The position numbers were made by a program, and so were the translations under genes. DNA of 64,000 nt from Luteibacter sp. 9135 (GTDB taxonomy: Bacteria; Pseudomonadota; Gammaproteobacteria; Xanthomonadales; Rhodanobacteraceae). The notes beneath the pieces were generated by a model. It was not told where the DNA came from. It did no database searches and saw only the letters and a program-made list of their open reading frames with translations. Positions 35,101-54,655 of the stretch are shown piece by piece. The stretch's first letter is position 1, and each line of letters starts with the position of its first letter. The stretch is from NCBI RefSeq assembly GCF_000745005.1, contig NZ_JQNB01000001.1, positions 372,001 to 436,000 on the forward strand. Direction: 5' to 3'.

Positions 35101-35343
35101 AGAGCCGGCGGGTGCCACCCTCGGGGCCGGTAGCCGCAGGCGAGGGCTTCGCACGGACAAGGCCGCGTAGCGGGGCCGGCCAGGACGGCCGGCCATTTTC
35201 GCTGAGCCATGGATGGCGAATTGAAATCCCCGGGGCGAAGCCCGACCCGGGCCCGAAGGGCAATAGATATACGGCCGCGCCAGCGGCCTTTCCTTTTCGG
35301 GTCGCCGCAGGCGTGGCCCCGAGGGGGCGACCCGCCGGCTCTT
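35101..35343 (+). repeat. ~240-base inverted-repeat-bounded intergenic element, copy A
   Basis: Bounded by AGAGCCGGCGGGT... on the left and ...ACCCGCCGGCTCTT on the right. Arms match over about 24 bases but differ in the middle (GCCA against CGCC). Inside is a GGCCGGCC hairpin (around 35175-35196), then GCCATGGATGGCGAA, then GC hairpins. Core sequence is close to copy C in the same orientation. Confidence 0.85.
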
Positions 35344-35387: not shown

Positions 35388-35410
35388 TCGCGCACATCGT
35401 GCGCTCCTAC
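35388..35410 (-). repeat. GTAG-type REP palindrome
   Basis: Read on the minus strand it is GTAGGAGCGCACGATGTGCG followed by CGA, the same family as at 2601 and 53361. It lies between copy A of the large repeat and the lpxC terminator. Confidence 0.8.
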
Positions 35411-52514: not shown

Positions 52515-52877
<363 letters not shown>

Positions 52878-52884
52878 AGCCCGG

Positions 52885-52890
52885 ATTGTA
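52885..52890 (-). promoter_or_regulatory. -10 box of rnpB
   Basis: TACAAT on the minus strand ends exactly 7 bases before the predicted rnpB 5' end. The -35 region (~52908-52913) has no clear consensus. Confidence 0.65.
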
Positions 52891-52961
52891 CGGCATAACG
52901 CGATATCGGCGATGGCTTGGGGCTCGCCTTTGGCATCGCGTTGGGCCTTGGGCCGTGGAGC

Positions 52962-53201
52962 AAGAGCCGGCGGGTAGCCCCCTCGGTGCCACGCCTGCGG
53001 CGACCCGAAAGGGAAGGGCCGCTCCGCGGCCGTTTGTCTATTGCCCTTCGGGCCCGGGTCGGGCTTCGAACGGAGGTTTCCGATTCGACCTCCTGTCTCA
53101 GCGGAAACGGCCGGCCGTCCTGGCCGGCCCCCTTCGGGCTTTCTCCGTTCGAAGCCCTCGCCTGCGGCTACCGGCACCGAGGGGGCTACCCGCCGGCTCT
53201 T
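52962..53201 (-). repeat. 240-base inverted-repeat-bounded intergenic element, copy B (core inverted)
   Basis: Left arm 52962-52985 and right arm 53178-53201 are perfect 24-base inverted repeats beginning AAGAGCCGGCGGGTAGCC. The core is the reverse complement of copies A and C. An extra internal 15-base stem pairs 53061-53075 with 53143-53157. Its left flank (52929-52970) matches that of copy A in the same orientation at 33 of 42 positions, and lies just upstream of the rnpB promoter. Confidence 0.9.
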
Positions 53202-53289
53202 CCTCAAACTGAGGTGGCGTGTTGGGCGAGCAGCGCGTGGGGTGAACGAGTAGCGGTCGGGGTACGGCGTCAGCGCTTTGTTTTGGTTG

Positions 53290-53313
53290 TTCGCGCACAT
53301 CGTGCGCTCCTAC
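53290..53313 (-). repeat. GTAG-type REP palindrome
   Basis: Minus-strand unit GTAGGAGCGCACGATGTGCG + CGAA. It forms a head-to-head pair with the plus-strand unit at 53361, 47 bases away. Confidence 0.8.
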
Positions 53314-53360
53314 GCCGGAGGTAGGGTCGGTCTATTCAACGTCTGATCCACCGGCTGTGT

Positions 53361-53390
53361 GTAGGAGCGCACGCGTGTGCGCGAACCCTC
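53361..53390 (+). repeat. GTAG-type REP palindrome
   Basis: Plus-strand unit GTAGGAGCGCACGCGTGTGC continuing GCGAACCCTC; partner of the unit at 53290 in a BIME-like inverted pair. Other sequence in 53202-53498 shows nothing recognisable. Confidence 0.85.
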
Positions 53391-53498
53391 AACACCACCC
53401 AAGGCGGCTGATACCGTGCGCATCAGGCAAGCGAGCGTTCCCAACAACGAAGCGAAACCTGGCTCTTAGCTTTTCCCACACGCAACCTCAGTCCGTGA

Positions 53499-53738
53499 AA
53501 GAGCCGGCGGGTGCCACCCTCGGGGCCGGTAGCCGCAGGCGAGGGCTTCGAACGGACAAGGCCCGAAGGGGGCCGGCCAGGACGGCCGGCCATTTTCGCT
53601 GAGCCATGGATGGCGAATCGAAAATCCCCGGGCGAAGCCCGACCCGCCCCGACGGGGAATAGATAAACGGCCGCGGAGCGGCCCTTCCTTAGCGGGTCGC
53701 CGCAGGCGTGGCCACGAGGGTGGCACCCGCCGGCTCTT
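53499..53738 (+). repeat. 240-base inverted-repeat-bounded intergenic element, copy C
   Basis: Left arm 53499-53522 and right arm 53715-53738 are perfect 24-base inverted repeats beginning AAGAGCCGGCGGGTGCCA. The core has a GGCCGGCC-AGGAC-GGCCGGCC hairpin, GCCATGGATGGCGAA and several GC hairpins, and follows copy A closely. It lies about 90 bases before rsmI. Confidence 0.9.
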
Positions 53739-53827
53739 GCTCTAGGGCTCTAGGGCTCCAAAGCTCTAACCCCCCACACCACCAAATCCACTTCTACAAT
53801 GCCCAGCCACGCCCACCGGATGCACCG

Positions 53828-54655
53828 ATGACCCAGCCCCGCCCCGGCACGCTCCATGTCGTCGCCACCCCCATCGGTCACCGCGACGATATCGCCGCCC
53901 GCGCCATCGAGACGCTGCGGCGGGTGAAGGTCATCGCCGCGGAAGACACCCGGCACACCCGCCCGCTCTTGCAGCACCTCGGCATCGACACGCCACTGGT
54001 GGCCCTGCACGACCACAACGAGCGCACCGCCGTCGACGGCCTCGTCGAACGCATGCGAGCCGGGGACGACGTGGCGCTGGTCTCCGATGCGGGCACGCCC
54101 CTGATCAGCGACCCGGGCTTCCGCCTGGTGCGTGCCGCTCGCGCTGCGGGATTGAGGGTCAGCCCTGTGCCCGGCCCCAGCGCCGTGATCGCCGCGCTGT
54201 CGGTGGCCGGTCTGCCCAGCGACCGCTTCGTTTTCGAGGGGTTTCTGGCAGCCAAGGCCGGCGCCCGGCGGGCGCGCCTCGCCGAGCTTGCCGGTGAGTC
54301 GCGCACGCTCATCTTCTACGAGTCGTCGCATCGCATCCTCGAATCCCTGGAAGACATGCGGGAGGCGTTCGGTGCCGACCGCGAGGCCGTCGTTGCGCGC
54401 GAGCTGACCAAGATGTTCGAAACGGTGCTGGACGGCTCGCTGGCGGCGCTGGTCGAGCGCGTGGCGGCCGACCCGAACCAGCAACGTGGCGAGTTCGTGG
54501 TGATGGTGGCCGGTCGCGAGGCCGGCGAAGACGAGCGCCTGGCCGAGGGACTGCGTGTCTTCGCCATCCTGAAGGACGAACTGCCGCCCGCCCGGGCGGC
54601 CAAGCTCGCCGCCGCCATCACCGGCGCGCCACGCAAGGCGCTCTACGGGACGTAA
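53828..54655 (+). CDS. rsmI: 16S rRNA (cytidine-1402-2'-O) methyltransferase
   Basis: This 275-residue tetrapyrrole-methylase-fold enzyme has GTLHVVATPIGHRDDIAARAIETL, AAEDTRHTRPLLQHLGI, LVSDAGTPLISDPGFRLV, VPGPSAVIAALSVAGLPSDRFVFEGFL and FYESSHRILESL. It methylates the 2'-O of C1402, the same nucleotide that RsmH, encoded about 2 kb away, methylates on N4. ATG 53828 starts the family N-terminus; the longer frame upstream lies in repeat DNA. Confidence 0.96.
   Translation: MTQPRPGTLHVVATPIGHRDDIAARAIETLRRVKVIAAEDTRHTRPLLQHLGIDTPLVALHDHNERTAVDGLVERMRAGDDVALVSDAGTPLISDPGFRLVRAARAAGLRVSPVPGPSAVIAALSVAGLPSDRFVFEGFLAAKAGARRARLAELAGESRTLIFYESSHRILESLEDMREAFGADREAVVARELTKMFETVLDGSLAALVERVAADPNQQRGEFVVMVAGREAGEDERLAEGLRVFAILKDELPPARAAKLAAAITGAPRKALYGT

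Follow-up and report, generated by a model that had tools for sequence, protein, structure and literature searches.

The intergenic element E of Luteibacter sp. 9135 is a structured, strand-specific repeat, a conclusion that is well supported, as is the likeness of its core sequence to the RNA family TwoAYGGAY (Rfam RF01731). Its sequence leads us to favour, if only slightly, a reading in which E is a dispersed, palindrome-packaged, lineage-specific and enlarged variant of a TwoAYGGAY-type RNA that probably binds CsrA. The window, by which we mean the whole stretch of 64,000 nucleotides analysed, spans positions 372001-436000 of a genome assembled as one contig of 4,485,268 bases.

Three copies of E are found in the window, all of them where the first-pass annotation had placed them and two exactly 240 nt long (52962-53201 and 53499-53738); the third, at 35101-35343, has 243 nt. 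The 52962 (-) and 53499 (+) copies are the two halves of one inverted pair, located between the start of rnpB and rsmI. The 240-base element holds as an element, whilst the actual unit is this larger inverted pair. The inverted ends, first put at 24 bases, are present as arms of 28 to 33 bases: 29 nt at 97% (53499/53710), 33 nt at 97% (52958/53173) and 28 nt at 89% (35101/35315). A hairpin described as conserved, GGCCGGCC, is found in all three copies; the segment GCCATGGATGG, attributed to each, occurs in two, and the 52962 copy has GACAGGAGGTC instead. The features are as follows:

53499-53738, + strand (inferred to be the strand that folds): full-length copy of E, 234.4 bits with model R1
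52962-53201, - strand: copy of E, inverted partner of 53499-53738, 236.2 bits with model R1
35101-35343, + strand: copy of E, single at its site, 194.6 bits with model R1
53202-53498, no strand: middle of the pair, 297 nt, with REP-like hairpins
53499-53527, + strand: P1 closing stem, 5' arm, from arm alignment and covariation
53710-53738, + strand: P1 closing stem, 3' arm, from arm alignment and covariation
53541-53642 (genome 425541-425642), + strand: TwoAYGGAY-like core domain
53571-53591, + strand: hairpin 1, GGCCGGCC-AGGAC-GGCCGGCC, with its loop GGA at 53580-53582
53603-53614, + strand: hairpin 2, GCCATGGATGGC, with GGA at 53608-53610
53601-53602 and 53615-53616, + strand: GA flanks of hairpin 2
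53059-53159, - strand: core domain of the 52962 copy
35142-35245, + strand: core domain of the 35101 copy
52921-52940, + strand: outer flank repeat GGCTCGCCTTTGGCATCGCG, resembling the outer flanks of many loci in this genome

E is nearly palindromic, matches on both strands and is crossed by open reading frames on both strands. A protein-coding reading was considered and rejected, being opposed by stem covariation and by the presence of reading frames in multiple frames of a GC-rich palindrome.

The fold is carried by covariation. In an alignment of 37 copies from 16 Luteibacter genomes, made from sequence alone and giving 66 consensus pairs, double changes that keep pairing occur in 44 of the 66, in the arms and inner helices alike, a number reached in none of 500 shuffles. 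With the named structure 96.4% of cells are paired, compared with 36-49% when it is slid along the alignment, and 345 cells show double changes against a shuffle mean of 92. The class-wide core behaves similarly in an alignment that was fitted to the structure: 33 of 35 pairs covary, with 95.4% of cells paired against 37-44% when slid. In the arms, AAGAGCCGGCGGGT shifts to AGAGCCGTCGGCC or GAGCCCTCGGCTGTC and the partners match. On the E strand of 138 copies, G-U exceeds A-C by 75 to 27 (states distinct per genome, which are not independent events), and this excess indicates a single folding strand. The window copy gives z -7.5 when folded as RNA and z -7.7 as DNA, values too close for folding energy to tell RNA and single-stranded DNA apart. 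The first-pass annotation had left a MITE-like element, a structured RNA and a DNA-protein site equally open; a strand-specific folded nucleic acid is now strongly supported by covariation, by the G-U polarity and by a terminator-like hairpin on the same strand in relatives.

Across the genome, a search by BLAST (scoring the best 40 of 92 candidates) and by the pattern of the arms, followed by a best-strand profile, identified at least 61 full or partial copies of E at 30 loci of the 4.49 Mb, of which 46 are full length; since similarity guided the choice of loci, this is a minimum. The arm 13-mer, allowing one mismatch, has 62 + 61 genome sites, compared with 8 + 10 for a reversed control. 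This excess and the dozens of copies argue that the family is not due to chance, and the proposed whole-genome search returned dozens of further copies where finding none had been named as the contrary outcome.

A minus copy lies to the left of a plus copy at 27 of the 30 loci (24 as '-+', three as '--+') and the opposite order occurs at none; the remaining three have only plus sequence, split at one of them, and no inverted partner. The middle of the pair measures 282-329 bases in 18 of the 27, is shorter in two and is enlarged to 836-2803 bases in seven (L101, L105, L110, L113, L118, L119 and L121). REP-like motifs are found in the middle of all 27 pairs. Comparison of 23 of the loci showed that the two ends of the middle are two different conserved stretches and that the outer flanks often carry GGCTCGCCTTCGGCATCGCG-like repeats. 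In another Luteibacter genome, G018, 248-250 bases separate the copies in seven of nine pairs examined. Of the seven enlarged middles two were examined, L101 (the same locus as L059) and L113 (L060), and these hold IS110-family transposase and rve/HTH_Tnp_1 genes, the latter presumably IS3-like. The transposase genes look like later insertions and the pairs may thus be insertion hot spots; the idea that the whole element is itself an insertion sequence was rejected. By heuristic ORF calls, for which no background was computed, 24 of the 30 loci are downstream of one or more genes and 13 are flanked by convergent genes. On the chromosome, the loci are concentrated in the two mid-arms, with few around dif or on the side opposite to it (harmonic 2; post hoc test, p 0.0004); dif is placed at 3309836, where the sequence has one mismatch to the consensus.

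At the gathering cut-off, Rfam finds only RNase P in the window. Below it, the window copy matches RF01731 with 33.0 bits at 53571-53624, the cut-off being 43. When the best 21 candidates per genome were scored, the highest value in this genome was 33.5 bits, and sub-threshold matches fell inside E copies in nine of nine cases here and in eight of eight in G003. In a search limited in the same way, seven of 117 genomes of the family gave matches at E 0.01 and three exceeded the cut-off, and there were no matches in 14 control genomes. A copy of E in G048, from another genus of the same family, reaches 43.8 bits.

TwoAYGGAY has been listed for human gut, gammaproteobacteria and Clostridiales (PMC2864571) and was predicted in 2014 to bind CsrA, the tandem GA in its stem being noted (PMC4333381). 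E shares with the family (clan CL00106) its occurrence in gammaproteobacteria, two adjacent GGA-loop hairpins, a stem enclosing both, and tandem GA mismatches in one stem; strict AYGGAY is present in some copies only, among them the window copies 35101 and 53499, whose hairpin 2 has AUGGAU. It differs in its score of 33 bits against 43, in an extra 29-bp closing stem and 3' domain, in its dozens of copies in inverted pairs, and in that most copies have no terminator-like tail. The TwoAYGGAY-like character of the core is well supported, yet the window copies are not formal members of RF01731. The earlier impression that E is undescribed must accordingly be qualified: its core is related to a known family, and a match to a catalogued family, named beforehand as a contrary outcome, occurs in the window only below the cut-off. 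No report of E from Luteibacter, or of a multicopy TwoAYGGAY or CsrA repeat, was recognised among the open-licence PMC papers listed, and plasmid and phage collections gave no match to E.

The conserved loops point to CsrA. Among 140 full-length Luteibacter matches, a few of them from loci with a match on each strand, GGA is present in hairpin 1 in 135 and in hairpin 2 in 138, and CA(N)GGA in 102 and 137, respectively. One of the five exceptions in hairpin 1 is a simple change to CGA; the other four, and both exceptions in hairpin 2, seem to be matches that are rearranged or on the reverse strand. E has two further hairpins, which are C(GNA)G triloops with a variable middle base (in 123/150 and 81/150), and GGA occurs in their loops in 0/150 and 38/150. 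GA is conserved on both sides of hairpin 2. The GGA loops of hairpins 1 and 2 lie 28 bases apart, a distance that a single CsrA/RsmA dimer could span. There is one csrA gene in each of 23 Luteibacter genomes. PMC7652899 gives an ANGGAN hexaloop and the SELEX consensus RUACARGGAUGU, the core of which agrees with variants of hairpin 2 such as ACAGGGATGT. The GGA in the two inner loops thus has the look of a CsrA/RsmA signature, and the two hairpins of candidate CsrA docking sites. In G048, four of five cores examined are without GGA in both loops and the fold persists, which indicates that loss of the motif need not entail loss of the fold. In one G048 pair (L233) GGA is gone from both loops of the minus partner, and both loops of the plus partner keep CATGGATG; is this a split of function between the partners?

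Beyond Luteibacter, a core model with 101 positions has matches in 17 of 274 gammaproteobacterial genomes and 16 of 222 genera, this genome included, with at least two matches in 13 of the 17. Inverted pairs of cores occur in other genera (G340, G253, G240 and G370, and in the opposite order in G036). GGA is present in both hairpins in 42 of 43 core matches from 21 genomes, three training loci included. As the model had been trained on GGA loops, a GGA-masked version was used, which matched 15 of 369 genomes at E 1e-5. Outside two training loci, 33 of 36 masked-model matches, in 17 of 17 genomes, have GGA in both loops, although these loci are mostly common to the first search, L237 closely resembles the training sequences and neighbouring loop letters were left unmasked.

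In the other genera, an AT-rich, terminator-like hairpin follows the core within 200 bases 3' on the same strand in 35 of 42 cases, and lies 5' in one of 42 (one of the 43 cores, with short flanks, was dropped). For E in Luteibacter such a downstream hairpin is found in 2/140, with 90 bases tested rather than 200. A tail of the form GGTTACTTTTCTCTGG..CAGAGAAAAGTGAC (L252, 1660-1700), or a similar one, follows the core in many other genera; tails of this type are a common source of spurious ORFs. A family-wide search with model R1, scoring the best 10 per genome, gave matches in 119 of 197 genomes, among which the weak ones from other genera may reflect GC-rich palindromes of another kind.

Conservation of site and of sequence part company. 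Loci from six genomes and one locus of a seventh were compared, and in 15 cross-genome locus pairs, representing 13 sites, the genes on either side match at more than 100 bits. Best copy identities at a shared site were 0.62-0.86 in 16 comparisons, of which two involve L140, a locus not flagged as gene-matched on both sides, and two, with G019, have no background. In 12 of the other 14, the share of other locus pairs that were at least as alike ranged from 16% to 98%; for L090-L082 and L143-L152 no other pair was as alike, to two decimals. Within genomes the mean identity is 0.84-0.97, and the nearest neighbour comes from the same genome for 124 of 135 copies. Shared sites together with own-genome resemblance imply that sites persist and that sequences are homogenised or copies replaced, and we infer that concerted evolution, by gene conversion, or copy turnover keeps the copies alike. 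E or its remnants are found downstream of lpxC in 10 of 23 Luteibacter genomes, and the lpxC-dciA site of the 35101 copy holds a pair in G018 and G019. E lies near rsmI in this genome only (1/22, within the flanks examined), and at the rnpB-rsmI site the relatives have diverged too far to give an empty site exact to the base. In G018 the lpxC locus (L083, 4334-4747, minus strand) also has a match to sRNA Xoo8 at 70.6 bits, under the Rfam cut-off of 90.

In the mechanism that we propose, the strand running from 53499 to 53738 would fold into a closed, branched structure whose core displays the two GGA-loop hairpins. In Luteibacter, E would have spread to intergenic loci as inverted pairs around a REP-containing middle, an arrangement by which a transcript crossing from either side would carry one sense E, and gene conversion or turnover would keep the copies alike. 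Read-through or local transcripts carrying E might then serve as a distributed CsrA decoy, might tie mRNA 3' ends to CsrA, or both. Transcription of E and the decoy effect are presumed, and CsrA binding is predicted from the motif; the decoy role and the logic of the pair are put forward as hypotheses. There are no sigma-70-like sites in 52700-54000, a weak result as shuffles also give about none. Against this mechanism, RC(E), the reverse complement of E, and E could pair over about 240 bases on one read-through transcript. The known sponges CsrB and RsmX/Y/Z resemble E in their GGA hairpin loops, hairpin 2 being CANGGANG-like; unlike them, each unit of E has just two such hairpins, and E occurs in many scattered copies with no known promoter or regulator.

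A bolder version, which we offer tentatively and consider possible rather than probable, is that the repeat family forms a genome-wide CsrA sponge: a TwoAYGGAY-type RNA would have been amplified, with inverted pairs exposing a decoy whichever way they are read and conversion homogenising copies while their stems co-vary, and similar decoy families would exist in other gammaproteobacterial genera. E connects TwoAYGGAY, a family whose function is unproven, with intergenic repeats of high copy number, and raises the testable question of whether a global RNA-binding regulator can be titrated by a repeat family. It is also an example of apparently concerted evolution in a structured, non-coding bacterial repeat, in which compensatory stem changes differ between species and are common to many copies within a genome.

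The main rival is a selfish foldback or MITE-like repeat, in which the pair moves as one unit of some 780 bases, a REP doublet enclosed by inverted ends of 240 bases each, and is spread in trans, for example by a Y1/RAYT-type transposase, with the fold and loops serving single-strand DNA recognition. We judge this rather unlikely. In its favour are the minus-plus arrangement at 27 of the 30 loci, the REP-like motifs in every middle, a single Y1_Tnp gene, at 1697503, flanked by these REPs on either side, the patchy distribution among genomes of the class, the presence next to rsmI in this genome only, and the G048 cores without GGA. Long inverted ends, intergenic position and the lack of a gene of its own are indeed shared with MITEs and foldback transposons. 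Set against this, visual inspection of the flanks of 23 loci showed no target-site duplication, and no transposase belonging to E was seen, in line with the first-pass annotation, which had recognised the MITE-like ends and had likewise noted neither duplication nor transposase; many sites are common to several species, with copies there homogenised; the inner structure covaries; strict GGA is confined to two loops; and in other genera the terminator-like hairpin stands on the same strand. Moreover, this genome's REP motif, GTAGGAGC, is absent from all three window copies. It occurs eight times in the window, twice in the pair middle (53306-53313, - strand, and 53361-53368, + strand). A bare GTAG, found once in the 53499 copy (53529-53532), is not conserved across other genomes. 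E resembles REP/REPIN sequences with their RAYTs as a dispersed intergenic palindrome with REP-like motifs within each pair, and differs from these short hairpin units in being 240 nt long and multi-branched.

Two further explanations are much less probable. E could be a bidirectional transcript-end element, the long RC(E)-middle-E hairpin protecting the 3' ends of read-through mRNA or being cut by RNase III; the complementarity of RC(E) and E and the frequent position downstream of genes or between convergent ones would suit this, yet three loci have no inverted partner and conserved inner GGA loops would not be needed, and we regard it as improbable. Least probable of all is a chromosomal element acting as DNA, such as a cruciform, a site for a nucleoid protein or gyrase, or a BIME-like sequence. 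Near-palindromy, matching on both strands and the mid-arm distribution are consistent with it, but the G-U over A-C polarity and the asymmetry of the loops show that one strand matters. BIME, ERIC and BOX are, like E, dispersed palindromic intergenic mosaics, and we know of no sequence relation between them and E. REP-like hairpins of the form GTAGGAGCGCAC..GTGCGC lie in the window at 2601-2621, 35390-35410 and 53293-53313.
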